Shown: positions 8,030 to 52,845 of the stretch, piece after piece
Layout: every line of letters starts with the position of its first letter
How positions within the stretch are numbered: the stretch's first letter is position 1
Source of the DNA: a virus
DNA: 64,000 nucleotides
Reading direction: 5' to 3' (one strand)
Virus record (IMG/VR): IMGVR_UViG_3300044970_001297
Location: 1-64,000 of that record
The notes under the pieces: generated by a model
Databases searched by the model: none
What the model was told of the DNA's origin: nothing
The model's input: only the letters and a program-made list of their open reading frames with translations
Program-made: the position numbers and the translations under genes

Positions 8030-8599
8030 ATGGAACCGACATATAAAGGATCATCTTGGTTGAACAGAGAAGTTGGCAACTACACAATCATTGGTATCGG
8101 AGATAAAATAAAATATCCAAGTCAGAAAGATCCGACTCAGATGTGGAAAGTTAGATGCAAGTGTGGGAAAGAAAAACAGATCAGCAAGTGGCATTTGATC
8201 TACGGAAATATTGCAGGATGCTCGGATTGCATCGGTGAGAGAAATAGATTTGAAAAAAGTCCAAATTGGAATTCCAGTGCAAAGAATGTTACTGGAATGT
8301 ATTTTGCGAAGATTAAAAAGTGTGCTGAAAAGCGTAATATCCCCTTTGAACTCTCCAGAGAAGAACTTGATTCAATATTTCAAAAACAGAATGGTCTATG
8401 TCGATACACCAAGATGGAACTTTTATTTGAATCTCATGGATGCAAAGGTACAGCGTCTCTTGATCGGATAGATAGTTCTCTCGGGTACACCAAAGACAAT
8501 GTTCAATGGGTTCATAAGGATGTGAACACGATCAAATGGGATCTTTCACATGATCAGTTTGTAAAACTTTGTAAGACTATAACGGAGAATTTTGAATGA
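8030..8599 (+). CDS. HNH homing endonuclease (free-standing)
   Basis: A 189-residue protein. The N-terminal third carries a cysteine cluster (RCKCGKE... GCSDC) that looks like a zinc finger. The C-terminal half holds the HNH-type core: CRYTKMEL, then SLDRIDSSLGYTKDNVQWV, then a conserved HKDVN. Such proteins cut DNA at a specific site and spread into allelic copies. The gene is more AT-rich than its neighbours, which fits a recent mobile origin. Its stop overlaps the start of the ribonucleotide reductase as ATGA, so it sits directly upstream of a classic homing target. It is related to the HNH protein at 10596-11249. Confidence 0.85.
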   Translation: MEPTYKGSSWLNREVGNYTIIGIGDKIKYPSQKDPTQMWKVRCKCGKEKQISKWHLIYGNIAGCSDCIGERNRFEKSPNWNSSAKNVTGMYFAKIKKCAEKRNIPFELSREELDSIFQKQNGLCRYTKMELLFESHGCKGTASLDRIDSSLGYTKDNVQWVHKDVNTIKWDLSHDQFVKLCKTITENFE

Positions 8600-10560
8600 G
8601 TGACAAGAAAACCCTTCCTACTTCCTACCAACACTTTATTTTTATCTCTAGGTACTCAAGATGGCTAGAAAAGGAGGGTAGGCGAGAGACATGGGAAGAG
8701 ACTGTGGAACGCTACTTCAAGTTCTTCGATGAACATCTTGCGAACAATAGGAAATACAACCTTGATCCTGCGCTTCGTCAGGAACTCAAGACCGCTGTCC
8801 TCAACCTTGAGATCATGCCTTCCATGCGTTCTCTCATGACCGCAGGAGAAGCACTCAAGCGAGACAATACCGCTGGCTACAACTGTTCATATGTTGCCGT
8901 AAACCGTGTCCGTGCATTCGATGAGATCCTCTACATATTGATGTGCGGCACAGGCGTAGGCTTTTCTGTGGAGAGGCAATATGTCGAGAAACTTCCTACA
9001 ATCGCTGAAGCATTCACTGACTCTGATACCACGATTGTGGTGCAGGATTCGAAGGCGGGTTGGGCAAAGGCTTTCAGGGAACTCGTCTCTCTTCTTATTG
9101 GAGGTCAAGTACCCCAATGGGATCTGTCAAAGATTCGTCCTGCGGGAGCAAGACTTAAGACTTTTGGAGGTCGCGCGAGTGGACCAAAGCCATTGGAGGA
9201 TCTGTTTAGATTCACCGTTGACACCTTTAGAAGAGCAGCAGGGCGGAAACTCACTAGCATCGAATGCCATGATATCGTCTGCAAGGTTGCGGAGATTGTC
9301 GTCGTCGGAGGAGTACGACGCTCTGCTCTTATCTCGCTTTCAAACCTGACTGACGAGAGAATGCGCGATGCAAAGACAGGTGCATGGTGGAACGACAATC
9401 CACAACGCGCACTTGCAAACAACTCAGTTGCATACAAGGAGAAGCCCGAGATCGGCGTGTTCATGGACGAGTGGGTTTCCCTCTACAAGTCCAAGAGCGG
9501 AGAGCGTGGAATCTTCAATCGTGCGGCAGCACAAAAGACCGTTGCGAAGTTGGGTGATCGTCGCGATCCAAACTACGAGTTTGGAACGAATCCATGCAGC
9601 GAGATCATCCTTCGTGATTGCGAGTTCTGCAACCTCACGGAAGTCGTTGTTCGCCCTGAAGACACTTACGAATCACTCCGTCGCAAGGTTAAACTTGCAT
9701 CTATTCTGGGAACATGGCAAGCATCGCTGACTCATTTCCCATACCTCTCATCGTCATGGCAGAGGAACTGCGAGGAGGAGGCACTCCTTGGTGTATCGCT
9801 CACAGGCATCCTTGACAACAAGATGATGCGTGGTGAGGATGGTTCACTGGAAAACATCCTCACGGGTTTGAGAGTTGAAGCAGAAGAGACAAACAAGGCT
9901 TGGGCAGCAAACATTGGAATCAATCCTGCTGCGGCAATCACATGCGTCAAGCCGAGTGGAACTGTGTCTCAGTTGACCGATTCGGCATCGGGTATCCATC
10001 CTCGCCACAACGAGTACTACATCCGTACCGTTCGTGCGGATCGCAAGGATCCACTATGTCAGATGATGATCGACATGGGATTCCCCGCAGAGCCTTGTGT
10101 GATGAAGCCAGACCACACGATGGTCTTCTCGTTCCCAATGAAGGCAGAGGGTTCCGTGACACGCAACGACCTGACTGCAATCGAACATCTTCAGTTGTGG
10201 CTTGAGTATCAGCGTCATTGGTGCGAACACAAGCCATCAATCACCATCACCGTGCGCGAGCATGAGTGGATGGAGGTCGGCGCATTCGTCTATCGACACT
10301 TCGATGAGATCAGCGGCATTTCCTTCTTGCCCATGGACTTGGGTACATACCGACAGGCTCCTTATCAAGATTGCACTAAGGCTCAATATGAAGACCTTCT
10401 TGCAAAGATGCCAACGGGCGTTGATTGGGCAACATTAAAGCAGTATGAGAAACAGGATAATACTGCTAGTTCTCAATCATTCGCTTGTTCGGCTGGATCG
10501 TGTGAATTGGTAGATATAACATCCGATTCCGACAAGACCGCATTTCCCACACAGAGATAA
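8596..10560 (+). CDS. Adenosylcobalamin-dependent ribonucleoside-triphosphate reductase (class II)
   Basis: A 654-residue protein resembling the monomeric Lactobacillus leichmannii type RTPR. It reduces ribonucleotides to deoxyribonucleotides for phage DNA synthesis, using adenosylcobalamin instead of a beta subunit. Visible active-site residues are C97 (TAGYNCSYV), C334 and E336 (NPCSEIILR) and C345 (CEFCNL). These would be the C97/C345 redox pair and the C334 thiyl residue. The C-terminal swinging tail has a C631-x4-C636 pair (ACSAGSCELVDIT). An extra 16 residues follow that tail. HNH genes flank it on both sides, and the downstream one carries a second copy of the tail. Confidence 0.9.
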   Translation: MSDKKTLPTSYQHFIFISRYSRWLEKEGRRETWEETVERYFKFFDEHLANNRKYNLDPALRQELKTAVLNLEIMPSMRSLMTAGEALKRDNTAGYNCSYVAVNRVRAFDEILYILMCGTGVGFSVERQYVEKLPTIAEAFTDSDTTIVVQDSKAGWAKAFRELVSLLIGGQVPQWDLSKIRPAGARLKTFGGRASGPKPLEDLFRFTVDTFRRAAGRKLTSIECHDIVCKVAEIVVVGGVRRSALISLSNLTDERMRDAKTGAWWNDNPQRALANNSVAYKEKPEIGVFMDEWVSLYKSKSGERGIFNRAAAQKTVAKLGDRRDPNYEFGTNPCSEIILRDCEFCNLTEVVVRPEDTYESLRRKVKLASILGTWQASLTHFPYLSSSWQRNCEEEALLGVSLTGILDNKMMRGEDGSLENILTGLRVEAEETNKAWAANIGINPAAAITCVKPSGTVSQLTDSASGIHPRHNEYYIRTVRADRKDPLCQMMIDMGFPAEPCVMKPDHTMVFSFPMKAEGSVTRNDLTAIEHLQLWLEYQRHWCEHKPSITITVREHEWMEVGAFVYRHFDEISGISFLPMDLGTYRQAPYQDCTKAQYEDLLAKMPTGVDWATLKQYEKQDNTASSQSFACSAGSCELVDITSDSDKTAFPTQR

Positions 10561-10595: not shown

Positions 10596-11249
10596 ATGCG
10601 TAAAATAAGAACTTGTTGGGAAGAGAAAAAGCCTCTGTGCTTGTATAAAGGCGAAAGTCTTCTGAATAAGCAGATAAATGATTGGAAAATTCTTGGATAC
10701 CATTCAACCAAAGAAAAACCCAGTGGGTCGAGGGTAGATTGGTTGTGTCAATGTATGAATTGTGGCATGGAAAAACCTATTCCAATGTACAATGTAATTT
10801 CTGGCAGAAGTAAAATGTGCTTTTTGTGTGCAAATAAAGATAGGCATGGAGAAAAAAATCACAATTGGAAGGGTACAGGGTGTATACCATCTAGTGTAAT
10901 AACATCCATAAAAAATAGTGCTAAGTGTCGAAACATACCAATGGAAGTTACTCCTGAATATTTGAATACAATATGGGACGAGCAAAAACATAAATGTGCT
11001 TTGACTGGACTGGATTTGATTATGAAAGCAAAATCGAAAACCGATACACCTTGGTCAAATACAGCGTCTTTGGACAGAAAAAACTCATCCGTTGGTTATG
11101 TGATTGGAAATGTTCGATGGGTTCATCCAGTCATCAATATGATGAAAAATCATTTTAGCGACGAAACATTTATTTCTATGTGTAATAGAGTTACAAGTTG
11201 GGTTGCTTGCTCTGGTGACAAGTGTGAAATCGTGGATCTTACAAACTAA
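10596..11249 (+). CDS. HNH homing endonuclease carrying a second ribonucleotide-reductase tail
   Basis: A 217-residue protein. The N-terminus has a cysteine cluster (CQCMNCG... CFLCANK). The HNH core is CALTGLDL, then ASLDRKNSSVGYVIGNVRWV. After the normal end of such an enzyme (ETFISMCNRVT) the frame continues into SWVACSGDKCEIVDLTN. That segment matches the reductase C-terminus just upstream (ACSAGSCELVDIT) and keeps the C-x4-C redox pair (C205, C210). The two tails differ at many third codon positions, so this is not a recent duplication. The simplest reading is that the element inserted at the 3' end of the reductase gene, brought its own version of the tail, and left the original tail fused to itself. 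RNA splicing is an alternative. Confidence 0.85.
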   Translation: MRKIRTCWEEKKPLCLYKGESLLNKQINDWKILGYHSTKEKPSGSRVDWLCQCMNCGMEKPIPMYNVISGRSKMCFLCANKDRHGEKNHNWKGTGCIPSSVITSIKNSAKCRNIPMEVTPEYLNTIWDEQKHKCALTGLDLIMKAKSKTDTPWSNTASLDRKNSSVGYVIGNVRWVHPVINMMKNHFSDETFISMCNRVTSWVACSGDKCEIVDLTN

Positions 11250-29811: not shown

Positions 29812-30765
29812 TTATTCGTCGCTGAGAAGAAGTGCGAGTTCGTCTGAAACCTCGCCAGTCTCTGCGAAATCAGCAAGGATCTCTGCAAGACCTTCTTCGC
29901 CATATAGTTCGATTCCCTCTGCGAGGATCGCGTCGAGGATGTCAAAATCCTCTTCCTCTGCAACCTCTTGACGAGTTGCACTGGTTCCTGTGGTTCCATA
30001 GGTTGCGCTGGAGCCAGTTGGACGACCAGAGCCTAGGTTTGTCTTGCGACTCTTTGGAGCCTTTGAGGTTGTAGTACCACCAGAACCAAATGTTCCGCTG
30101 CCCAATGCTCTTGCTAGGTCGTATCCACTCTTCATGCCAGAGAATCTACCTTGATTCCAATACTCAGCACCAGCCTCTGCAACCTCTTGACGAGTTGCAT
30201 TGGTTCCTGTGGTTCCATAGGTTGCACTGGAGCCAGTTGGACGACCAGAGCCTAGGTTTGTCTTGCGACCACCCTTTGGACCCTTTCCAAGGGTGTTGCT
30301 TCCACTGAATGTCTTTCCAGCATTCAATGCCTTTGCTATGTCATATCCACTCTTCATGCCAGAGAACTCACCTGTATTCCATGATGCTTCGTCGAGGATT
30401 GCCAACGCTTCCTCAATGTCGGCTTCTGTGATCGCACCCCTCTTGGCTGCTGTTCCGACAGATGCCTTAGCAGAAGACGATCCCTTGCCACCCTTGACGC
30501 TTGTTCTGTTGGATGAGGCAAAGTTGCCGCGACCACCGCTCTTGGCAGCAGTAGTGAATGCGTTTGGACTTGGCTTTCCACCACCCATCTGAGATGCAAG
30601 CCATTGAGCCAACTGCATGGCATTCATTGCACCACCGATTGATGAATGTCCCCATTGAATTCCAGATGTGCCAGAACCATCTGTTGCGGTTCCTGCTGTT
30701 GATGTGGAAACTGCCTCTTGGACAGATTCGATTAGTGATGCGTAGCCGTCGCGGTTGATTGCCAT
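29812..30765 (-). CDS. Repeat-containing putative internal virion protein
   Basis: A 317-residue, Gly/Ser/Thr/Ala-rich protein. The leader MAINRDGYASLIESVQEAVS contains L-I-E and V-Q-E sites. Two copies of a 73-residue unit containing FSGMKSGYD, then KTNLGSGRPTGSSATYG and ATRQEVAE occur in tandem (about residues 130-280). Another A(I/L)LDEA site lies at residue ~122. The C-terminus is acidic (LAEGIELYGEEGLAEIL). It may be cut into fragments in the prohead like T4 scaffold-associated proteins. That role is inferred. Confidence 0.55.
   Translation of the reverse strand: MAINRDGYASLIESVQEAVSTSTAGTATDGSGTSGIQWGHSSIGGAMNAMQLAQWLASQMGGGKPSPNAFTTAAKSGGRGNFASSNRTSVKGGKGSSSAKASVGTAAKRGAITEADIEEALAILDEASWNTGEFSGMKSGYDIAKALNAGKTFSGSNTLGKGPKGGRKTNLGSGRPTGSSATYGTTGTNATRQEVAEAGAEYWNQGRFSGMKSGYDLARALGSGTFGSGGTTTSKAPKSRKTNLGSGRPTGSSATYGTTGTSATRQEVAEEEDFDILDAILAEGIELYGEEGLAEILADFAETGEVSDELALLLSDE
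29955..30269. repeat. In-frame direct repeat inside the gene at 29812-30765
   Basis: Two 96-bp copies (29955-30050 and 30174-30269) differ at only a few positions and are 219 bp apart (73 codons), so the repeat keeps the frame. It encodes a GSGRPTGSSATYGTTG-type unit. Confidence 0.8.
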
Positions 30766-40940: not shown

Positions 40941-43436
40941 TCAGGCGACGATGTCCATGAGGCGGTTGATGAACATGCGGTTCGTCTCGTCGCGCTTCAT
41001 GGCAGCGATGAAGGCACGGGTCGCAGCGACCTTCCTGTTCTTCAACTTCTCAAACTTCGCATCCTCGTTCTTCGCGATCTCCTCGGCGCGACGGCGATCC
41101 TGCACCTGGACGAAGAAGTAGGAAGCGTATCCCGAATTCGGGTTGTTGATCGCGACGAACTTCTCGGCATCGAACTTCTCACGGAGGACCTTCGTCTTCT
41201 CCAAGCGGGTGGTGTAATCGTCCTTGTCGGCAGTCGCGAGACGATCAAAGGTCGAGCAGTACGAGAGGCTCTGCATCATCATGATGCCGACCACATCGCA
41301 TCCCGTGGCATCCTTGAACATGTTGACCACCGCGGTGTTGCCGTGACCCGTATGACGGCGACCGTTGGCGGCATCGATCATCACCTTGGAGACATGGCGG
41401 TAGTGACCACCGGTGTTCTTGCTCTTGCTGAGATCCTCAGGAGTGTTGACGCGGTTGATGACGCTCATGCCTTCGCCATCGGTGAGGGTGATGAAGGTCA
41501 CCTTGGTGTTGCTGGACTTTCGGAAGTTGTTGACGATGTCACGCATGGCAAGGATCGACTCGTCAAGCGGGGTCGTGCCAAGCATCAGCGAGTCAACGCA
41601 CTCGACCTGAGAGTAGCGACCGCTGACCATCTTGGCGAGGAGCGAGAGGCGACCCATCACCCGCGCGAACTTCTTGTTGTCCATGTTCTGGTTGTAGACC
41701 TGAACAAGGCTGAACGCCTCAAAGGTTGCCGTGTATCCCTTCGCAACGGTGCCAGCGGGGAGGTTGCAGACATGCTCGGTGAAGAGGCGACGCTCGTCAA
41801 GCGCACACCAATTCACGCGGGACGATCCACCGTAGCGAAGCGCGTCGGCGCGGGTCGGCTTCTTGCCGTCCTGATCCGCAGGGAAATGCTTGTTGTTCTT
41901 CGCGAAGAGGTCATCCGCGAACTTGCTGTACATGCTGTTGAAGAAGTAGACCTCGGCAGGGATTCCGACGCGACGGCAGAACATCAGGAGAGCCGCGAGT
42001 TGGCTCACGGTGTCGTTGAGCATGACGCTCATCGAACCCGACCAGTCGAGGAGGATCACGATGCCGTGGTTCTTCTCGTCGCGCTTGATGGTCATGCGCT
42101 CAAAGATGTCCTCGCTGAACTTGTACTTGGCAAGGTTGCGGCAGGAGATGCGACCCGTCTTCGCGCTCGACTCGCGAGCGTAGTTGCGAGCCGCACGACG
42201 CACTTCGAAGCGACGGCACATCTGGTCGACCGCACGACGGTTCTCCGCGACGAGTTCCTTGAAGGCTTCCGCTGCCGCCTTGTCGAGGTGTTCCGACACG
42301 CTGCCCGTGATCTTGTGGTACTTCGACGGAACGCTCTGGTTCATCAGGTCGATGAACTCGTCGCTGCTCACGACGATCTTCGAAGTGTCGATCTGCGGGA
42401 CGCGGATGGCGTGTTCGACAACCTGGTTGTTGACGAACTTCTTCATGGCCTTCTCCATCTCGCCAACGGTCGAAGCCGCATCGGGAGCGTACTGCTGCGC
42501 CTCGACCTCTTCCTTGCCGCCATCGGTCTCGTCTGAGGCTTCGGCAGTCGAGCCATCGTCCTGAGCCGATTCGTCGCCGTCGTTGCCACTGGACGAATCC
42601 TCGCGCTCGCCGTTGCCCTGCTCGTCGCTACGCTCGCTCTTGTCCTCGGCACCCGCTTCGCGAGTCTCGGACGAATCGGTCTTGTCGTTGCCGTCCTCGC
42701 GGGAAGCAGCACCTTCGCGCTTCTCCTCGCCGTTGTCGCCGTCCTGCTCGGACGAAGCCGAACCGCTCTGCTGCTTGCCGTCGCTCTTGGTCTGGTTGGT
42801 GCGGCTTCCCTCGCCCTGCTCCTCCTCGCGCTCGCGCTTCTGGTTCTTCGCGAACTCGTAGACCTCGGCAGCGATGGCGGTGACATCATCGAAGGTACGC
42901 GCCGCGTTGATCGCGTCCACGAACTTCATCTCCTCCGCGCTGAAGGGAACCTGAACGCCAAGGTGGATGCCCATCTTGAAGTGGATGTTCAGGCGGTCGA
43001 TGGTCGAGAGGGAAGCGAGGTCGCGACCCTTGAGGTTGAAGGCATCCATGGTGCTGAGGGCCTGGTAGCCGTTGATGAAGTCGCGGCGAAGACCAGGAAA
43101 CTCGCGCTTGATCATGCGCTCAATGCGAGCGTCTTCGATCACATTGATGTAGTCCTTCGCGACCATGGCATTCTTGGTGCCGCCGATGCGGATGCTGGCT
43201 TCCTTCCACGCATCGGCAGGAGTGTACTTGGCATGGCCGACCTCATGGCCGACAAGGAAGTCATAGACGCTCTGGTCCTTGTTGTCCCACTGCGGCAGAA
43301 CAAGCCGACGCGAGTCGAGTTCGAAGTAGGCAGTCTCGCACTCATGCGAGTGTTCGACGGTGAGGTTCTCCGACGCGAGCAGACGCGCCATGATGGAATT
43401 GCGAGCGGTGTTTGCGGTGTTCATGGTAGTAGCCAT
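40941..43436 (-). CDS. cobT: CobT-like VWA-domain protein
   Basis: An 831-residue protein. Residues 64-68 (GHEVGHAKY) form an HExxH-like motif seen in CobT-type proteins. A long Ser/Glu/Asp/Gly-rich linker spans about 195-320. The C-terminal von Willebrand A domain carries the MIDAS motif D464-W-S466-G-S468. In aerobic B12 synthesis CobT pairs with the AAA+ protein CobS to drive cobalt insertion with CobN. A CobS-like gene is 5.6 kb away and a B12-dependent reductase is in the same genome, but no CobN is seen. The pair could instead be a MoxR-VWA-type remodelling chaperone. The start is at 43436, 9 bases after a -10 box. Confidence 0.75.
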   Translation of the reverse strand: MATTMNTANTARNSIMARLLASENLTVEHSHECETAYFELDSRRLVLPQWDNKDQSVYDFLVGHEVGHAKYTPADAWKEASIRIGGTKNAMVAKDYINVIEDARIERMIKREFPGLRRDFINGYQALSTMDAFNLKGRDLASLSTIDRLNIHFKMGIHLGVQVPFSAEEMKFVDAINAARTFDDVTAIAAEVYEFAKNQKREREEEQGEGSRTNQTKSDGKQQSGSASSEQDGDNGEEKREGAASREDGNDKTDSSETREAGAEDKSERSDEQGNGEREDSSSGNDGDESAQDDGSTAEASDETDGGKEEVEAQQYAPDAASTVGEMEKAMKKFVNNQVVEHAIRVPQIDTSKIVVSSDEFIDLMNQSVPSKYHKITGSVSEHLDKAAAEAFKELVAENRRAVDQMCRRFEVRRAARNYARESSAKTGRISCRNLAKYKFSEDIFERMTIKRDEKNHGIVILLDWSGSMSVMLNDTVSQLAALLMFCRRVGIPAEVYFFNSMYSKFADDLFAKNNKHFPADQDGKKPTRADALRYGGSSRVNWCALDERRLFTEHVCNLPAGTVAKGYTATFEAFSLVQVYNQNMDNKKFARVMGRLSLLAKMVSGRYSQVECVDSLMLGTTPLDESILAMRDIVNNFRKSSNTKVTFITLTDGEGMSVINRVNTPEDLSKSKNTGGHYRHVSKVMIDAANGRRHTGHGNTAVVNMFKDATGCDVVGIMMMQSLSYCSTFDRLATADKDDYTTRLEKTKVLREKFDAEKFVAINNPNSGYASYFFVQVQDRRRAEEIAKNEDAKFEKLKNRKVAATRAFIAAMKRDETNRMFINRLMDIVA

Positions 43437-43444
43437 ATGCTGTA

Positions 43445-43473
43445 AGTATACATTACATCGGCACTTAGGACAA
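43445..43473 (-). promoter_or_regulatory. Sigma70-like promoter for the CobT-like gene
   Basis: Minus strand TTGTCC, a 17-base spacer, TATACT. Only 8 bases separate the -10 box from the ATG at 43436, so the mRNA may lack a leader. Confidence 0.6.
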
Positions 43474-43510: not shown

Positions 43511-43537
43511 GTAAGTCTTGGGAATATCAGGACTTAC
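43511..43537. promoter_or_regulatory. Inverted-repeat element upstream of the CobT-like gene (copy 1)
   Basis: GTAAGTC...GACTTAC, 27 bp. It starts 75 bp from the CobT-like ATG. The outer 9 and 11 bases on each side are the same as in the element at 50390-50416, which lies 76 bp from the CobS-like start. No T-run follows, so it is not an ordinary terminator. It could be an operator or an activator site. Confidence 0.65.
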
Positions 43538-43843
43538 GCAGAATGGCTGAAATCGGGCTGATTCGGGGGCATTATTCGGACGCGGGACGGGGCAAGAATC
43601 TTTGGAAATCTTGCTGGGAACAGTGTTTTCGGGCTTGACGGCGGGTCTGGAATTTGGCATTGCCGTCTTCCCCATTTCCCACTCCCAGACATTTCCCAAA
43701 CTCCCCATCTCTTCCTATCGCATTCACTCAGACACCCCCCTACCCCCTCCCCCCACTTTTATTTTGCCCTATGTTGAAAATGCAAAATCGGCTTGGCAAT
43801 TTTTTCTCACCAAACCGATTTCCCAAAGTTCCCATTCCTGTTC

Positions 43844-44020
43844 CTACTTGCCTCTGCGGAGTGCGGCTACCTTTCCAAACAGGTACTCCACCGCATCATA
43901 GACGAACAGAGCCACATTCACCACAACGACTGAGGCTAGGAGCATCGTGTACATCGGAATGTACAGAAGCGCATCCTCGGTCTTCCACTTCAGCAGTTGC
44001 CATCTTGTCGGTGTTTGCAT
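43844..44020 (-). CDS. Small membrane protein (58 residues)
   Basis: The frame starts MQTPTRWQLLKWKTEDALLY and has one transmembrane segment, MLLASVVVVNVALFVYDAVE, then a basic tail LRRGK. GGAAGGGG lies 10 bases before the ATG. It overlaps the 3' end of the metallophosphoesterase gene by 31 bases in another frame. Function unknown. Confidence 0.6.
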   Translation of the reverse strand: MQTPTRWQLLKWKTEDALLYIPMYTMLLASVVVVNVALFVYDAVEYLFGKVAALRRGK

Positions 44021-44754
44021 AGTTCCAATCCCCTTCCGATGTCACGAATGTATGTGAGGTTCTCCTCATCCGTCCAACACCCGCAGTTCATGTAGTGGAT
44101 CTTTCCGATCATCTTGTCCGCTGGCTCATGGATGTGTCCGCAGATCACTCCATCGTACCCATGCTTCTCTGCGTACTCGGCAAGATGCCTTTCGAAACTT
44201 CCTATGAACATCGTTGCCTTCTTGAACTTGACCTTTATGAACTTTGACAATGACCAGTATCGAAATCCAAGTTTCCGCCTCACCCAATTGTACCAGTCGT
44301 TCACCTCTATCAGGAGTTCATACCCGATGTCCCCGATCTTGGAGACGAATGTCCCGATCTTGTACTTGCACACCAGATCGAACTGGTGTCCGTGCAGGAC
44401 AAGGTAGCGGCGACCGTCTGATGCCGTGTAGTCGCACCGCTCATGCAGATGGATTCCACCGAACGACCTCGACTCTGAGAACCGATGCATGAACTCGTCA
44501 TGGTTTCCCCAGATGTAGTGGACTTCACCAGACTTCCCCTTCTTCAGCAACTTCCGTATGCAATCGACATGGTCTGTCTGTGTCTTTGCATCCATTCGAA
44601 ATGCCTGTTGGAATCGCCAGATGTCGAGGATGTCGCCCACAAGGAAGACATTGTTCGATTCGTCCTCCTTGAGGAACTCCTTCAGTCTTGCGGCTTTGCA
44701 CTTGTTCGATGCGAGGTGGAGGTCTGAGATGAAGAGAGCGGTCTTTGTGGGCAT
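43990..44754 (-). CDS. Metallophosphoesterase, LpxH-like
   Basis: A 254-residue protein starting MPTKTALFISDLHLAS. All five calcineurin-type motifs are visible: D-x-H (SDLHLAS), GD-x-x-D (VGDILDIW), GNHDE, the HGHQFD region and GHIHEP. The closest known group is LpxH/UDP-2,3-diacylglucosamine pyrophosphatase, with its conserved HGHQFD-type motif, which acts at the inner membrane in lipid A synthesis. A phage copy could alter host envelope lipids or have a nucleotide substrate. The substrate is not proven. Confidence 0.75.
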   Translation of the reverse strand: MPTKTALFISDLHLASNKCKAARLKEFLKEDESNNVFLVGDILDIWRFQQAFRMDAKTQTDHVDCIRKLLKKGKSGEVHYIWGNHDEFMHRFSESRSFGGIHLHERCDYTASDGRRYLVLHGHQFDLVCKYKIGTFVSKIGDIGYELLIEVNDWYNWVRRKLGFRYWSLSKFIKVKFKKATMFIGSFERHLAEYAEKHGYDGVICGHIHEPADKMIGKIHYMNCGCWTDEENLTYIRDIGRGLELCKHRQDGNC

Positions 44755-44765
44755 GTTGCAGATAT

Positions 44766-44891
44766 CTATCGCCTCAACATGTTGTCCATGTCCTTGCGGA
44801 TCTCCTGCACGATCATGTGGATCTTTCCAGCGTACCACCCCGCACCGAATGAACAGATTGCGAGTCCGATTGTGAGAATCATCTCTGTCAT
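44766..44891 (-). CDS. Small membrane peptide (41 residues)
   Basis: The frame is MTEMILTIGLAICSFGAGWY, then AGKIHMIVQEIRKDMDNMLR. It has one N-terminal hydrophobic segment and an amphipathic helix. Its ATG overlaps the upstream stop as ATGA, which indicates translational coupling. Role unknown. Confidence 0.5.
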   Translation of the reverse strand: MTEMILTIGLAICSFGAGWYAGKIHMIVQEIRKDMDNMLRR

Positions 44892-45118
44892 GGCTGTTCG
44901 CCTCCGTAGTTAGTGAACCGTCTCCAACTCCTGCCCTGCAACACCTTGTATGCGTCTTCTACGAGTTTCGCAAGTTCCACGGTGTTGCCCGTTCGCGTCT
45001 CTGGGTTGTAGTAGCCGTCCCAATCCACAAGCAGGATCGAAGCGTTCGTGATCCGCTCCTCAAGGTCCTTGACCCGATTCTGAAGATTGGTGATTTCGGC
45101 ATCAGGCATTGATTGCAT
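44888..45118 (-). CDS. Hypothetical protein
   Basis: A 76-residue protein starting MQSMPDAEITNLQNRVKDLE. The N-terminal 30 residues form a coiled coil, then WDGYYNPETRTGN. The start at 45118 is chosen because AAGGA lies about 9 bases upstream; 45109 is possible. It overlaps the upstream gene by 17 bases. Confidence 0.5.
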   Translation of the reverse strand: MQSMPDAEITNLQNRVKDLEERITNASILLVDWDGYYNPETRTGNTVELAKLVEDAYKVLQGRSWRRFTNYGGEQP

Positions 45119-45473
45119 AGTTGTATCCTTGGCTGGAGTTCGCATCGTCTCGCGCACAGAACTCATCCTGCACCATCTCAATGTGTGGGCTGTAGTCTGT
45201 CTTCGCAAAGCCTTGCTCCAGCAGGGCAGTGTAGATCTCCCGTGCCACATCGATGTGCATCTTTCGCACTTCTCCCGAATGCCGAAAGACGAACTTGCAG
45301 TACGAGTATTCGCCCTTGATGAATATCTGATATCCCGTCACGGGGTCGAAGAAGATCTGGTTTCCATCCACTCGGACCTGGTAGTGATCTCCCCAATCCT
45401 GAAACGAGAAGACGAGATTGGGGCGACCTTGCGAATCGTTTAGCAGCAGGGTGTGTGTCTTTACTTCCTTCAT
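45102..45473 (-). CDS. Hypothetical protein
   Basis: A 123-residue protein with beta-type sequence (NLVFSFQDWGDHYQVRVDGN, GEYSYCKFVFRHSGEVRKM). There is no recognised motif. It overlaps the next gene by 4 bases (ATGA), and both belong to the run of small early-type genes. Confidence 0.6.
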   Translation of the reverse strand: MKEVKTHTLLLNDSQGRPNLVFSFQDWGDHYQVRVDGNQIFFDPVTGYQIFIKGEYSYCKFVFRHSGEVRKMHIDVAREIYTALLEQGFAKTDYSPHIEMVQDEFCARDDANSSQGYNYAINA

Positions 45474-45823
45474 TGCTTCGAAACCTCATACTTCTTTCCG
45501 TTGAATCCTTCGTGGGCAACCATCGACTTCCAGAGTTTCCTCAACACTTCGATGTCGTAGTACTTGTTCCCGATGAAGTCCTTGTTCTCCTCCTGCACAT
45601 CGGTCAGGCATGACCATGAGAACACCATGGTCGGTTCGCCAGGCTCTTGTCCGCAGTACTGCACGACCTTTCCGCAGTACGGAGTTCCATGATAGTCATT
45701 GTAGATCGTGAACACCATCATGCTTCGCGGACGAGAGTACTGTCCATTCTCAAGCACCTCCTCGCGGACAAGGATATGAATCGAATCGGCAGGAGCGAGG
45801 TCGTGAAGATCGTACTTGCTCAT
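45470..45823 (-). CDS. Hypothetical protein
   Basis: A 117-residue protein starting MSKYDLHDLAPADSIHILVR after GGAGAATCC. Cysteines in CGKVVQYCGQE and FSWSCLTD are not arranged as an obvious zinc site. Mixed alpha/beta, cytoplasmic. Function unknown. Confidence 0.6.
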   Translation of the reverse strand: MSKYDLHDLAPADSIHILVREEVLENGQYSRPRSMMVFTIYNDYHGTPYCGKVVQYCGQEPGEPTMVFSWSCLTDVQEENKDFIGNKYYDIEVLRKLWKSMVAHEGFNGKKYEVSKQ

Positions 45824-45836
45824 TGTTGGATTCTCC

Positions 45837-46148
45837 TCAGGCGTTGGAGCGGATCGCGGAGGGCATGGTCGATGCCGCATGGATGAACTTCGCGACCTCG
45901 TTCGTTGTGAGATGCCCAAGGACATTATCGCTGTTGTAGTCGAAGCCCGTGACATGCACCCACTCATGCGTATCGGCATCCCATGCCGCGACCTCTGCGG
46001 TGGTCTTGCCATCGGAGTAGTTGTGGTTTCCCCAACGGATGGAAACGGTGATGCGGTTCGCGAAGGTCATCGTGAAGCCGCGATTGTAATCGGTGGTGAC
46101 AAGGTTCAGACGGTTGAGGGAATCGGAGATGGAATTCTTGTTCGTCAT
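45837..46148 (-). CDS. Conserved hypothetical phage protein
   Basis: A 103-residue protein starting MTNKNSISDSLNRLNLVTTD. The segment FTMTFANRITVSIRWGNHNY followed by TAEVAAWD resembles a family of small phage proteins with F-x-N-G-x-T-V-S-I-Q-x-G-x-x-N-Y. It uses the GGAAACACACA-ATG leader repeated in this cluster. Role unknown. Confidence 0.65.
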   Translation of the reverse strand: MTNKNSISDSLNRLNLVTTDYNRGFTMTFANRITVSIRWGNHNYSDGKTTAEVAAWDADTHEWVHVTGFDYNSDNVLGHLTTNEVAKFIHAASTMPSAIRSNA

Positions 46149-46170
46149 TGTGTGTTTCCTTCTGTGAGTT

Positions 46171-46383
46171 TCACCGACCACGCGCATACTCGCGCTCAAG
46201 CCTCTCTGCTCCCCGCGATGTCCGTGCCACGAAGAGTTCACCCGCGGTCTTGTGCGAGTAGATGATTCTCGCATGGTACTTGAATGTGTGCTTGTCGCTG
46301 CACTTCACGCAGTGCTTCGTCTCTGGCAGGAACTCAAGTCGGGCATTCGGGATCTCGTTTCCGCAGTCTTCGCAATCACGCAT
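46171..46383 (-). CDS. DksA/TraR-type zinc finger protein
   Basis: A 70-residue protein. CEDCGNEIPNARLEFLPETK followed by HCVKC is the C4 zinc finger of the DksA/TraR family (C-x2-C ... R-L ... C-x2-C). Small family members bind the secondary channel of RNA polymerase and change transcription. At 70 residues it fits TraR-like phage proteins, although the coiled-coil tip is not obvious and most of the C-terminal part is basic. Confidence 0.75.
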   Translation of the reverse strand: MRDCEDCGNEIPNARLEFLPETKHCVKCSDKHTFKYHARIIYSHKTAGELFVARTSRGAERLEREYARGR

Positions 46384-46576
46384 ATGCGATCCTTTCGAAT
46401 GAGAACTTCACGGTCTTGCGTTCGATCCGCGCCTCTGCATCGTCGTGCATCTTGCGCTGCTTGATGATGCCCTTGCCGTTTCCGAACGGCTTGCAGATCG
46501 TGCGGTTGTGCTTCGTCACCGCTGTACCTTCGCGCTCCGCTTCCAAGTCGAACCTGTCGATGACTCGCTTCGGCAT
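46376..46576 (-). CDS. Basic hypothetical protein
   Basis: A 66-residue protein, MPKRVIDRFDLEAEREGTAV, with a basic C-terminal half. It has a strong AGGAGG site before the ATG and overlaps the DksA/TraR-like gene by 8 bases. It is probably co-translated with that gene. No motif is recognised. Confidence 0.5.
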   Translation of the reverse strand: MPKRVIDRFDLEAEREGTAVTKHNRTICKPFGNGKGIIKQRKMHDDAEARIERKTVKFSFERIAYA

Positions 46577-46599
46577 TGCGAACCTCCTGTACGACCATC

Positions 46600-46671
46600 T
46601 TACCTCGGGGCGAAATCCATGTCAAGCCCCAAGACGAAACCAAGAAAGCACACGAAAAGATTCAGAACCAT
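46600..46671 (-). CDS. Possible 23-residue hydrophobic peptide
   Basis: The frame MVLNLFVCFLGFVLGLDMDF, then APR, starts exactly after the GGAAACACACA leader used by neighbouring real genes. It is hydrophobic through residue 16. It could be a tiny membrane peptide or the start of a decayed gene next to the tRNA. Confidence 0.35.
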   Translation of the reverse strand: MVLNLFVCFLGFVLGLDMDFAPR

Positions 46672-46702
46672 TGTGTGTTTCCTTCTGTGAGTTTTCTCAA
46701 AC

Positions 46703-46774
46703 GCTCCCGATAGGATTCGAACCTATGACCTGGTCTTTAGGAAAGACCCGCGCTATCCTCTACGCTACGGGAGC
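46703..46774 (-). tRNA. tRNA-Arg (anticodon CCT)
   Basis: The minus strand folds as a cloverleaf with acceptor GCTCCCG / CGGGAGC, anticodon stem GGTCT / AGACC around loop TTCCTAA, and T-arm with loop TTCGAAT. CCA is not encoded. It reads AGG, a codon that is rare in many hosts. Confidence 0.88.
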
Positions 46775-46781
46775 AGTCCAT

Positions 46782-47147
46782 TCACGCGCCCTTGACGAGC
46801 ATCGAAGGCAACTTCCACTCTTCGATGTTCTTGCTGTCCCGCACCCAATAGAACACGGAGTCGTTGTCATCCACCATGAGGGTGCCGTGGCATTCGCGCA
46901 GCATCTCGTCGCACTCGCTGAGGATCGCGGTCCTCGTATCCTTCGGGAGGTCGAGGATCTCGTCCTCCGTGATGATGATGTTCGCGAAGGAACCAGGCGG
47001 AAGCCATGCAATCGGATCCTCTGAGAAACACGCATTCCCCCGAATGCCCTCAAGCCATGCGACGAGATCGCAGACCTGTTCGAAGGGCGTGGTCACGATG
47101 TACGAAATCAGATTCTCCGCGACGAGAAGGAACTTCACCTTATCCAT
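46782..47147 (-). CDS. Hypothetical protein
   Basis: A 121-residue protein starting MDKVKFLLVAENLISYIVTT. It has a mixed fold with three cysteines in SECDEMLRECHG and an upstream ACFSED. The start is 47147, with AAGGTG upstream; it overlaps the previous gene by 8 bases. Function unknown. Confidence 0.6.
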   Translation of the reverse strand: MDKVKFLLVAENLISYIVTTPFEQVCDLVAWLEGIRGNACFSEDPIAWLPPGSFANIIITEDEILDLPKDTRTAILSECDEMLRECHGTLMVDDNDSVFYWVRDSKNIEEWKLPSMLVKGA

Positions 47148-47544
47148 TCGCAGCACCTTCCTTTCCGATCAGTTCACGAAGCAGGAGATCGTCGCCATCG
47201 GTGTCGTTGAGGATGCCCTCGACACGGAGCATCATCGTCTCACCGAAGTTCTCCTTCATGAAGTTGGTGAGTTGGAGGTTGAGAGACTTCGACTTCGGAT
47301 CCATCGGAATGTTTGCATTCTGATAGACGATGTAGTTGTTTTCGATGATCTTCGAAAGGATCTTCGAAATCTCGTTGAGAGAGAACACAGAGATTCGCGC
47401 CTCGTTGTACTTGTTCTTGAGACGGCGATTCTCATCATTGAGCGCGAGGATCTTGGAGACGATGATCTTCTTGCCCACCTCGCTCTCCATGCACTTGAGG
47501 ATGGCAGTTTCGGCAACGGTCTTTGCGGTGGAGTTGCTGCTCAT
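47140..47544 (-). CDS. Hypothetical helical protein
   Basis: A 134-residue protein starting MSSNSTAKTVAETAILKCME. It is predicted to be mostly helical with a coiled-coil segment (ILALNDENRRLKNKYNEARI). The start follows the AGGAAAC-type leader. Function unknown. Confidence 0.6.
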   Translation of the reverse strand: MSSNSTAKTVAETAILKCMESEVGKKIIVSKILALNDENRRLKNKYNEARISVFSLNEISKILSKIIENNYIVYQNANIPMDPKSKSLNLQLTNFMKENFGETMMLRVEGILNDTDGDDLLLRELIGKEGAANG

Positions 47545-47599
47545 TGCGAGTTTCCTTTGTTTGTTTTCGTGTTCTCGGAAAGACAGACTACGCACTCAC

Positions 47600-47896
47600 T
47601 CACTCGTCATCGTCAAAGTACTCATCTTCGTCCTCGCCCTCCCACTCTTCCTCTTCGTCATCTTCGAACTCGTCTTCCTCTTCCTCGCAGTCGAGGTCTT
47701 CCCACTCGTTCTCCTCTTCCTCGTCTTCGAAGTCATCATCGTCATCGAACTCGTCATCGTCTTCGAAGTCTTCGCCGTCCTCGTCTTCGTCCTCCTCCTC
47801 GTCCCACTCGCTCTCGTCATCGTCGTAGTCCTCCTCAAGCGCAATGAGGGTGCGGTCGAGGTGGTCGCGGTAGAAAGTATCTTCGTCGTTGCTCAT
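47600..47896 (-). CDS. Extremely acidic protein, possible DNA mimic
   Basis: A 98-residue protein. After the first ~20 residues (MSNDEDTFYRDHLDRTLIAL) about 62 of the last 78 residues are Asp or Glu, with scattered Trp, Phe and Tyr. This composition is typical of DNA-mimic or histone-sequestering proteins, such as phage inhibitors of restriction or of nucleoid proteins. It uses the conserved cluster leader, so the gene is likely expressed. No specific target can be read. Confidence 0.6.
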   Translation of the reverse strand: MSNDEDTFYRDHLDRTLIALEEDYDDDESEWDEEEDEDEDGEDFEDDDEFDDDDDFEDEEEENEWEDLDCEEEEDEFEDDEEEEWEGEDEDEYFDDDE

Positions 47897-47920
47897 TGTG
47901 TGTTTCTCTCTTTCTCAGTT

Positions 47921-48208
47921 TCAGGAGGTGACGGTTGCAAGTTCGCGAAGCATGTCGGCAATCTGCTGCCAGTTGATCGTCGGGTCATCGACCTTGACTC
48001 CATCGGGAGTCTCTTGCTTGCGGTAGTGGTCATCGAACGCGATGCTGACGAACGCCTTTGCCCATGCCGCAGTAGGAAGATTACCACGGGCATGGAGCCT
48101 GTCAACAGCCTTCACGGAAGTCTTGTAAAGATTCTCGTCGTTCGAAAGCCAGAGCGAAATGTTCCATGTGCTGTGGTTCGACCAACCATTGTAAGTTTCA
48201 GAACTCAT
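47921..48208 (-). CDS. DUF7249-like conserved phage protein
   Basis: A 95-residue protein. The start [20 protein letters not shown], then LSNDENLY, matches a widespread phage/plasmid family (YNGWxNxxTWxxxLWLxND). The C-terminal part ([30 protein letters not shown]) also fits. Function of the family is unknown. Confidence 0.7.
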
Positions 48209-48228
48209 TGTGTGTTTCCCTCTGTGTT

Positions 48229-48519
48229 TCAGGAGTTGGTGTTCTCGTTGCTGCCGTTGCCGTCCTGTTCCGTCGTGTTCTGCGGAGCGACGGGTGCGGG
48301 TGACGGAATCGGGTTGTTGTTCCACACGATGCCACCGACCGCACGACCGCGCTTGAGCGTGATGCGGGTTCCATAGCGCGAGAGCATCAGGCGACGGATG
48401 GTGGACGCGGAAACGCCAGTCAACTTGCCAAGGGTCTTGAAGTTCGTCTTGCCGTTGTTGAGGGTGTTCTCGACGGTGTTCCAATCAATGATGTTCGGGT
48501 TGATGGGCTTACGAGCCAT
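48229..48519 (-). CDS. Small DNA-binding (helix-turn-helix) protein
   Basis: A 96-residue protein. [20 protein letters not shown] at about residues 27-46 looks like a helix-turn-helix, followed by basic LKRGRAVGG. The C-terminal tail is Asn/Pro-rich and probably disordered. It may regulate the small-gene cluster. That is inferred. Confidence 0.6.
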
Positions 48520-48598
48520 TGTGAGTTTCTCCTGCTGAAGTTTGAAATTTGAAAAACAGAAAACGAATTTTGAGTTTGCGGTCGCTTACAAGTTCAGT

Positions 48599-48973
48599 TC
48601 ATGCGAGATCTCCGTACTGAACTCCCGTCTGCGGATCGCTGTCTGAGGGAGTGTTGCAGCACGATGCACTGCGTCGAGCCTGTGCTGCGATTCGGACATT
48701 CTGTCGTTCGATCACGCGCTGAAGAGCCGCGTTCCGCTCGCTGAGATTGCGAACTTCTTCCTGAAGATCACGGATCTTCTTCTCGTCGCCCTCACACGCC
48801 TCGACTTCGTTCTTCCACCCAGTTGCCTTGCGAACCGCATCGGCGGCAACACGCTCAAGACGCGCATTGTCCTCGCGCAGTTGAATGATGATCTTCTCGC
48901 GGTTCTGAATCGTCTCCGCGAGGGACTCGACCACGGTGCCGCACACATCGCTGAAAGAGGGAATGTTGCTCAT
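48599..48973 (-). CDS. Coiled-coil hypothetical protein
   Basis: A 124-residue protein starting MSNIPSFSDVCGTVVESLAE. A long coiled coil spans about residues 18-95. A CC pair occurs near the C-terminus. Function unknown. Confidence 0.6.
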   Translation of the reverse strand: MSNIPSFSDVCGTVVESLAETIQNREKIIIQLREDNARLERVAADAVRKATGWKNEVEACEGDEKKIRDLQEEVRNLSERNAALQRVIERQNVRIAAQARRSASCCNTPSDSDPQTGVQYGDLA

Positions 48974-49042
48974 GATGAAAACTCCGAATGTGAAATTTAG
49001 AACTGCGAAATGGGCGGTCGCATCGCCCACCGATGGCGTAGG

Positions 49043-50314
49043 TCAGAACGGGACAGTCTGATCCGACTTCTCGTCCGACTTCGCGCCCTTCTGCGCGTCG
49101 GTCGAGGTGTCCGCGATCTTGTTGTAGAACGAGTAGAACGACTCGCGGGTGTTCTCATCGAACCGCGCAAGCGCGAGGTTCATCGCCGTCTTGAGATCAC
49201 CGAAGATCACATAGCCTTCGGCAATCGCGACGAGACGGCGAGTCGAGACGAGATCCTCGACCGCACCCGCCTCATACGCCTTGCGGACGGAGTCCGACCA
49301 ACGCGAGAGGTTCTCCGACAGAGTGGTAGCGACCGCAGCATCGACACCAAGCGCGTCGAACGCCTTGCTGAGGATCGCGATTTCCGTCGCGACGGGCGGG
49401 TACGGCTGATCGACGGTGATCTTGAACCGCTCAAGCAGGGCCTCGTTCTGCACACGGGTGCCGACGAAGCGACCATCGTCGCTACCCTTGCCCTTGGTGT
49501 TCGCGGTCGCGAACACGGTGAAGCCGCGCTCGGGCTTGATGAAGCGACCGACCTTCTTGAGGAAGACGCCCTTGCCCTCAAGCACGGGCTGAAGGCACAT
49601 CGTCTTGAACGACCCAAGGTCGAGTTCGTCAAGCAGGAGAACCGCACCGCGCTTCATGGCTTCGACCACGGGACCATCGACCCACACGGTGTTGCCGTTG
49701 ATGAGACGGAAACCGCCAAGGAGATCGTCCTCATCCGTCTCTTCGGTGATGTTGACGCGGAAGAACTCGCGACCCTCCTTCGCGCAAATCTGCTCGACCA
49801 TCAGGGTCTTGCCGTTGCCCGAAAGGCCGTTGATCCACGCGGGGAAGAACACCTTCGACTTGACGATGGAGCGCAGGGTCGAGAAGTGACCCCACGGCAC
49901 ATAGATCGGATTCGTCGCGGGGACGAACTTCTCGACCTCGGTGACGAGAGCCGCGACCGAAGTGGGCGCGGGTGCCGACTCGACAACCGCAGCGACCGCC
50001 TTGGCGCGGACCTGAGGTGCGACGGGCGCAGACGCAGCGCAAGCAGCGACGGCTTCGGGGATGCTGTAGAGGCCGCGACCCGCACGACGCTTCGCGTCGT
50101 TCGTGACCCACACGGGCGCACCGCTCATGCCGCACTTCTCAGCAGCAGCGAGAACCTGAGTACGAGTGTAGTTGTGTTCGCCGTCGCCGTTCCCGTAGAG
50201 CGAGACGATGGTGTCCACGAAACGACGCTGACGAGTCTGAAGGTTGCCGTACATGGTGACTCCGTTGTTGGTGTTGCGGATGGGCTTGGTGCTGTTGGTG
50301 ATCTTCATCGACAT
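49043..50314 (-). CDS. cobS: CobS-like AAA+ ATPase (MoxR family)
   Basis: A 423-residue protein. Walker A is GLSGNGKT (163-170), Walker B is GAVLLLDELD (223-232), and an arginine-finger region lies in ANTKGKGSDDGRFVGT and ALLERF. The N-terminal ~130 residues carry a YSI- and Ala-rich linker seen in phage CobS proteins. CobS with CobT forms the ATP-driven part of cobaltochelatase, and T4-like cyanophages commonly carry cobS. The CobT-like gene lies 5.6 kb downstream and has the same upstream element. The start may be 50314 or 50254; the latter has a GGAG site. Confidence 0.8.
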   Translation of the reverse strand: MSMKITNSTKPIRNTNNGVTMYGNLQTRQRRFVDTIVSLYGNGDGEHNYTRTQVLAAAEKCGMSGAPVWVTNDAKRRAGRGLYSIPEAVAACAASAPVAPQVRAKAVAAVVESAPAPTSVAALVTEVEKFVPATNPIYVPWGHFSTLRSIVKSKVFFPAWINGLSGNGKTLMVEQICAKEGREFFRVNITEETDEDDLLGGFRLINGNTVWVDGPVVEAMKRGAVLLLDELDLGSFKTMCLQPVLEGKGVFLKKVGRFIKPERGFTVFATANTKGKGSDDGRFVGTRVQNEALLERFKITVDQPYPPVATEIAILSKAFDALGVDAAVATTLSENLSRWSDSVRKAYEAGAVEDLVSTRRLVAIAEGYVIFGDLKTAMNLALARFDENTRESFYSFYNKIADTSTDAQKGAKSDEKSDQTVPF

Positions 50315-50320
50315 GCCATA

Positions 50321-50349
50321 AGTATCTGATACTTTGATTCGTCTGTCTA
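50321..50349 (-). promoter_or_regulatory. Promoter-like region of the CobS-like gene with palindrome
   Basis: Minus strand TAGACA, a 17-base spacer, GATACT. A perfect 7-1-7 palindrome AAGTATCTGATACTT (50320-50334) covers the -10 box, so it could be an operator. Confidence 0.5.
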
Positions 50350-50389
50350 CGGGGTCGGACGAAAATCCGCGAAAAAAGTCCAGATTTCT

Positions 50390-50416
50390 GTAAGTCTTGG
50401 TCTGGTAAGGACTTAC
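50390..50416. promoter_or_regulatory. Inverted-repeat element upstream of the CobS-like gene (copy 2)
   Basis: The second copy of the GTAAGTC...GACTTAC element found at 43511-43537. It has the same 27-bp length and nearly the same distance (76 bp) from its gene. The central 7 bases differ. The matched spacing supports a regulatory site. Confidence 0.65.
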
Positions 50417-52253: not shown

Positions 52254-52451
52254 TCAGAAAGGAAGGTCGAAGAGGTCGCCAAGGTCGAGTTCGCCGCCCT
52301 TGAGGTGTGCGCGTTCGCGGTCGCGGCGGTCGCACTCCTCATTGTAGGCATTCCACTCTTCGCGCGACTTGAACCTTTCGGGGTATTCGCGCTGCATTGC
52401 GTCGTTGGTGAGCCGTTCGAAGGCGCATGGGTTGTTGGTGTCGCTGCTCAT
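52254..52451 (-). CDS. Small hypothetical protein
   Basis: A 65-residue protein, MSSDTNNPCAFERLTNDAMQ, with a charged helical centre (REEWNAYNEECDRRDRERAH) and an acidic C-terminus GELDLGDLFDLPF. It may be a peptide inhibitor. No family is recognised. Confidence 0.5.
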   Translation of the reverse strand: MSSDTNNPCAFERLTNDAMQREYPERFKSREEWNAYNEECDRRDRERAHLKGGELDLGDLFDLPF

Positions 52452-52608: not shown

Positions 52609-52845
52609 TCACATTTTGTCATCTTTGTGGCATGGGCAAGGGTACTTCGCTTCGTCCTTGATGCCCTGCAAGACTATGAAGTTGGATGGGATGTCCTCGG
52701 GATTGCGTAATGCTCTCGCAACTCCGTTGTCGAACTCGCTCTTGGTGAGCAAAAGTTCAAACTGATAGCCTTCGGAGTTCACATGTGTGCATAGAAAGTA
52801 CTCGTCTGCCTCTCTCGCGGACTTCTTGTTGAGATTCTTTGCCAT
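52609..52845 (-). CDS. Small hypothetical protein
   Basis: A 78-residue protein starting MAKNLNKKSAREADEYFLCT, ending in YPCPCHKDD, a C-x-C-H cluster that may bind metal. It has an AGGAGG site and a CTAAATA late box. It forms its own short unit between two hairpins. Confidence 0.6.
   Translation of the reverse strand: MAKNLNKKSAREADEYFLCTHVNSEGYQFELLLTKSEFDNGVARALRNPEDIPSNFIVLQGIKDEAKYPCPCHKDDKM

Follow-up and report, generated by a model that had tools for sequence, protein, structure and literature searches.

A 27-bp inverted repeat upstream of the cobT-like and cobS-like genes of an uncultivated T4-like phage, a predicted regulator-binding site

The stretch described here, referred to as the window, is the first 64,000 nucleotides of IMG/VR virus record IMGVR_UViG_3300044970_001297, which belongs to an uncultivated, T4-like phage. 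A 27-bp inverted repeat precedes two of its genes, one similar to cobT and the other to cobS, and between each repeat and its gene lie hexamers resembling a promoter, recognized from the sequence. The locus contains the following features:

40941–43436, minus strand: cobT-like gene, 831 amino acids, with GHEVGH and DWSGSM motifs, PHROG 459 (peptidase)
43442–43468, minus strand: possible degenerate second palindrome, CTAAGTGCCGATGTAATGTATACTTAC, with three arm mismatches, overlapping the cobT promoter
43445–43450, minus strand: cobT −10-like hexamer TATACT, followed by TACAGC-AT-ATG
43468–43473, minus strand: cobT −35-like hexamer TTGTCC; the palindrome lies 37 bp upstream
43511–43537, minus strand: inverted repeat of 27 bp before cobT, reading GTAAGTCCTGATATTCCCAAGACTTAC on the coding strand
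49043–50314, minus strand: cobS-like AAA+ gene, 423 amino acids, AAA_5, PHROG 249
50321–50326, minus strand: cobS −10-like hexamer GATACT, followed by TATGGC-ATG
50344–50349, minus strand: cobS −35-like hexamer TAGACA; the palindrome lies 40 bp upstream
50390–50416, minus strand: inverted repeat of 27 bp before cobS, reading GTAAGTCCTTACCAGACCAAGACTTAC on the coding strand

Both repeats were found in the sequence at the positions given in a preliminary description of this DNA, and their distances of 75 and 76 bp from the start codons are reproduced by the coordinate differences to the ATG of cobT (43511–43436) and that of cobS (50390–50314). On the coding strand the two sites read GTAAGTCCTGATATTCCCAAGACTTACA and GTAAGTCCTTACCAGACCAAGACTTACA, with both 7-bp arms exact; 22 of 28 bases are identical, and the differences are confined to positions 10 and 12–16. 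The full pattern is GTAAGTCCT-N7-CCAAGACTTAC, a 10-7-10 geometry in which 10-bp inverted arms surround seven variable bases. The window holds 14 perfect 7-bp inverted repeats with a 13-base interval, and GTAAGTC is the only arm common to two of them. The exact form GTAAGTC-N13-GACTTAC is expected 6.5e-5 times per 64 kb under order-1 composition, and the coincidence of two copies is real and not due to chance. The whole 92,788-base record, which contains the window, has only these two, one before cobT and one before cobS; no third exact copy was found, and the site is therefore not one of many copies scattered at unrelated positions. The degenerate second palindrome is of doubtful significance; a sequence resembling it is also present in the related loci L005/L006.

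The core downstream of each palindrome is of the sigma70 type, TTGTCC-N17-TATACT for cobT, the 17-base spacer of which contains TGCCGAT, and TAGACA-N17-GATACT for cobS. TATACTTACAGCAT at the −10 region of cobT is identical in three lineages, and GATACT together with GGCATGTCGA at the −10 region of cobS is kept in L006 and L007. If these cores are used, the messenger RNAs begin on the start codon or at most 2 nt from it, so that the predicted start of cobT lies within 2 nt of its ATG and the cobS transcript is predicted to be leaderless. Further leaderless-looking promoters occur in the relative G003 without a palindrome, which restricts the palindrome to few genes.

The palindrome is carried by four lineages: the window phage (G000) with G001, G002 with G003, G004 with G005, and G006. 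It precedes cobS in all of them, at CobS identities to the window of 83% (G002/G003), 70% (G004/G005) and ~50% (G006), and it precedes cobT in every lineage for which the upstream region was read (G000/G001, G002/G003, G004 and G006). The cobT site is kept in L005/L006 (GTAAGTCCTGATATTTCCAAGACTTAC) and L007 (GCAAGTCCTGATTTACCAGGCACTTAC), the cobS site in L005/L006, L007/L008 and L014, and three-way alignments show constant arms and −10 regions amid changed flanks and spacers. The divergent cobT and cobS of G006 each possess one palindrome and one promoter, with 18 and 19 bp to the −35 hexamer. The palindrome lies upstream of the −35 hexamer in all cases of the window group, and a third gene is preceded by it in G004 and G006. 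It was not found in more distant phages with CobS, marine ones included. The retention at both genes in four lineages supports the suggestion of the preliminary description that a dedicated co-regulator or a phage-specific promoter class is involved; of the latter, the class stands, but the palindromes are not themselves the promoters, as each is followed, ahead of its gene, by a distinct sigma70-like core.

The 27-bp repeat is most readily read as the predicted site of a dimeric regulator acting on a sigma70-type promoter 37–40 bp further downstream, an interpretation given a probability of roughly two in three. A dimeric, sequence-specific DNA-binding regulator would dock on the inverted repeat, act on the downstream promoter and thereby have cobS (AAA+, MoxR/CobS-like) and cobT (peptidase/VWA-like) expressed together. 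It may touch RNA polymerase or a promoter factor from one face of the helix, and its effect is probably activation rather than repression. Several features of the sequence underlie the supposition that a protein binds the palindrome: the element occurs twice in exact form, it is kept before both genes throughout the four lineages, promoter-like cores follow it, and in other phages it is in helical phase with its promoter.

This phasing was observed in a wider class of promoters. A degenerate scan of viral contigs for the palindrome returned at least 120 stretches and, among the matches listed, many precede cores of the form TTGACA-GCCGATA-TATAAT. An independent scan for that core alone, with a palindrome counted at 14/19 or better and at most 200 bp upstream, yielded 110 distinct promoters, 29 of which have the palindrome as opposed to ~0.3 in shuffles; its distances group at about 30, 41, 51, 59, 71, 81, 93, 103 and 115. 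Where the spacer contains CGAT (140 non-redundant promoters), the distances from the palindrome to the −35 hexamer peak at 29–31, 39–41, 49–51, 60 and 70–72, with R=0.62 at 10.5 bp (p ~9e-24 if the promoters are independent, as all phasing p-values assume) and a best period of 10.3 bp (R=0.63). With one promoter per record, R is 0.55 (n=66, p ~2e-9). The 89 cores lacking CGAT in the spacer serve as an internal control and show no significant phasing (R=0.16). Helical phasing with a period of 10.3–10.6 bp is thus a property of the CGAT-spacer class of other phages, and within the window group the cobS sites conform to it and the cobT sites do not. A phage-specific promoter class of the kind foreseen in the preliminary description does exist in many uncultivated phages. 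In eight palindrome-rich phages, whole-record scans gave 7–24 sites, mostly in one block, against 0–1 in shuffled sequence, and the identical 27-mer occurs in G006 (position 52680) and in the palindrome-rich phage G021 (position 13851). That the site has an equal meaning in the window phage and in the others is suggested by this identity of sequence. BLAST searches of named phages with palindrome or promoter queries gave nothing convincing, only weak matches with E above 0.1, and in the literature the titles listed for the exact strings belong to unrelated fields, while searches by topic brought up no description of such a site or its regulator.

It is tempting to see here one code, in which the palindrome stands in helical register with a sigma70 promoter whose spacer in many cases includes GCCGATA, and one regulator, both common to unrelated large uncultivated phages, T4-like and others. 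This broader proposal is put forward tentatively, as the odds lean slightly to the other side.

Several observations weigh against the proposed regulator site. The helical phasing comes from other phages and not from the window group, in which the cobS distances of 40, 40 and 37 bp (19 in G006) fit the phase, but those of cobT (37, 36 and 33 bp) are 3–7 bp off the main phase. In G006 the third site and its −35 hexamer are a mere 5 bp apart, and the window homolog of the third target gene (52254–52451) has no palindrome. The GCCGATA spacer motif is mostly missing in the promoters of the window group, TGCCGAT being present only in those of cobT in G000/G003. Finally, no small regulator is common to the window group and the palindrome-rich phages, which share only genes of replication and metabolism.

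The alternatives are not mutually exclusive with one another in the confidence given to them, as two concern the protein that reads the site and the others the nature or effect of the site. The reader may be either a winged-helix protein of the phage or a protein of the host, and both are candidates. The phage gene is located as follows:

48229–48519, minus strand: candidate regulator, predicted winged-helix protein of 96 amino acids, ~520 bp downstream of the cobS stop codon

This protein, already named in the preliminary description, might control cobS, cobT and possibly itself, a possibility taken seriously at somewhat less than even odds. It is the only small protein of the window (up to 260 residues) with relatives in G003 (74% identity), G004 (67%) and G006 (34%), and its gene lies ~210–1800 bp downstream of cobS in all four lineages. 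Among 49 CobS loci with enough flanking sequence, the helix-turn-helix (HTH) gene is present in all five with the palindrome, and 43 of the other 44 have neither, the remaining one having only the HTH gene; this co-occurrence is, however, confounded and inflated by relatedness. In IMG/VR, detectable relatives of the protein were found solely in contigs with the palindrome. Its AlphaFold model has a mean predicted local distance difference test score of 71.5 (82–87 over residues 11–50) and shows three helices followed by a wing (order H-H-H-E-E) at moderate confidence. The top PDB matches in Foldseek are mostly winged-helix regulators (FadR, BirA and IscR), none of them significant (no match below E 0.1), and Pfam HTH matches are weak (E 0.015–0.02 only). 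Against the phage protein, in a fifth lineage, L015, the HTH protein is present and cobT and cobS are divergently arranged, yet the palindrome is missing, and the palindrome-rich phages lack a relative of the protein despite having the palindrome, once as the identical 27-mer.

Because L015 has the protein without the palindrome and the palindrome-rich phages show the reverse, a host regulator is a serious rival, likewise at less than even odds. Unrelated phage lineages on similar hosts would then borrow the site of a host protein, in line with the finding that T4-like phages and unrelated large ones have identical palindromes but no small regulator in common. In genomes with a perfect match, the palindrome core is found at 1–12 copies per genome with up to two mismatches, as opposed to almost none for a reversed control, and the bacterial groups concerned are Planctomycetes, Fibrobacter, Treponema and Verrucomicrobia. 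However, 257 Gb of bacterial and archaeal genomes contain only 39 perfect stretches, several of them on short contigs resembling misbinned phage. None of 31 bacterial genomes examined has a large dispersed palindrome regulon, and the GCCGATA promoter core is present in one of them, on a single contig.

Some of the bacterial copies have a particular setting. In several metagenome-assembled contigs of Planctomycetes and Treponema (GTDB, within L223–L261), the palindrome is found a few bases past the 3′ end of tRNA-like genes (examples are L231, L235, L236, L241, L243, L249, L254 and L258), and it also lies beside tRNA-like sequence in the phage loci L123, L124 and L218. The Verrucomicrobiae chromosome OX638380.1 has six dispersed copies within a longer repeat (L226, L244, L251, L253, L256 and L260), which is perhaps the end of a mobile element. 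The 0.4-Mb Patescibacteria genome of L234 (G037) contains 11 palindromes over ten contigs, ten of them of the form GCAAGTCGTTA-N5-TAACGACTTGC.

In phage genomes, modules made of a palindrome, a GC-rich linker and a second palindrome are repeated many times (L192, L207, L222, G023 and others), with linkers of 72–79% GC where measured and a spacing within the pair that is specific to the lineage (42, 45, 50, 52–53 or 58 bp). A rule of whole helical turns for the pairs, suspected from the spacings of 42 and 52–53 bp, was dropped because those of 45, 50 and 58 bp also occur.

The same protein site could instead serve repression, either by two operators with looping or by a block from upstream. The degenerate second palindrome overlapping the −10 hexamer of cobT, the paired palindromes of other phages and the many class promoters that are already near consensus would be in keeping with this, but a second copy is clear only in the cobT promoters of G000/G003, the phasing holds between palindrome and promoter, and the spacing of the pairs varies by lineage and is not always a whole number of turns. 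Repression is considered unlikely.

Still less probable is that the palindrome acts as an RNA hairpin, a terminator or a processing signal ending the upstream transcript. It does follow closely behind upstream genes (the gap to the lysozyme-like gene that precedes the cobS site is 20 bp), and in other phages it is often found after tRNA or gene ends, flanking a GC-rich linker. Partner palindromes that were located by position, at a spacing of 42, 52 or 53, and not selected on bases 5–8, had equal arm words in 7 of 213 cases as opposed to 27 expected from shuffling, one half being strong (GTCC/GTCG) and the other weak (ACCC/CCCC). The unequal halves and the scarcity of equal arms favor half-sites of a protein and disfavor RNA pairing. 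The hairpin was rejected on this lack of arm co-variation and on the helical phase of the palindrome with the next promoter. Moreover, no run of T directly follows the palindrome before cobT, and Rfam, applied to eight loci at the gathering score, matched only tRNAs and nothing at the palindrome. A recombinase core of the lox or dif type, suggested by the 10-7-10 geometry and by the several bacterial copies adjoining tRNA 3′ ends, where integration is common, is scarcely credible, as the genes and promoters that the sites precede in the window group are always the same, phasing with promoters is observed and weak arms are frequent.

Elsewhere in the window, a ribonucleotide-reductase-like open reading frame (8596–10560) lies between two that resemble HNH homing endonucleases (8030–8599 and 10596–11249). 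Two 96-base direct repeats (29955–30050 and 30174–30269), 98% identical, are located within one coding region, collagen-like Gly-X-Y repeats are found in tail-fiber-like frames (2253–2931), and eleven tRNA genes are on the minus strand between 46701 and 59040.

A single-regulator code, if true, would represent a new global switch of phage transcription. For phages represented solely by metagenome sequence, the palindrome class provides a promoter architecture that is defined by sequence and open to testing, and the palindrome could be used as a probe to fish out its regulator. The shared site would tie cobS to cobT in a single regulated unit and so supports the notion of joint action by CobS (AAA+) and CobT (peptidase/VWA-like) in phages.

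Among known systems, the NtcA box is GTA-N8-TAC, and the outer GTA and TAC of both window palindromes are 21 bases apart. The middle promoters of T4, dependent on MotA/AsiA, are likewise a phage promoter class in a T4-like context with an extra motif near the −35/−10 spacer. In these, the MotA box (about TGCTTTA), centered near −30, replaces the −35 hexamer, whereas the large class described here keeps TTGACA and has a far-upstream palindrome as its main element; cobT, cobS and the class promoters have a TTGACA-like −35 hexamer, spacers of 16–18 and no such box. The CIR palindromes of phiC31 and the stoperators of mycobacteriophage L5 are repressor sites at or near promoters and, similarly, many copies of one conserved site at the promoters of one phage group, but the site described here is ~30–50 bp upstream of the −35 hexamer and in helical register. 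NrdR boxes are paired palindromes at near-fixed spacing before promoters, as are the pairs in other phages, but the sequence is different, the window phage has no pairs and the spacing ranges over 42–58 bp by lineage. Class I sites of sigma70 activators (CRP-type, and Fis at rrn P1) differ from the present element in that the latter is a 27-bp palindrome with 10-bp arms, is accompanied in the large class by GCCGATA in the spacer and matches no known factor. They are, however, dyad-symmetric, placed upstream of the −35 hexamer and dependent on helical phase in their action, and the palindrome likewise has dyad symmetry, lies upstream of the −35 hexamer and, in the CGAT-spacer class of other phages, is in helical phase with its promoter.

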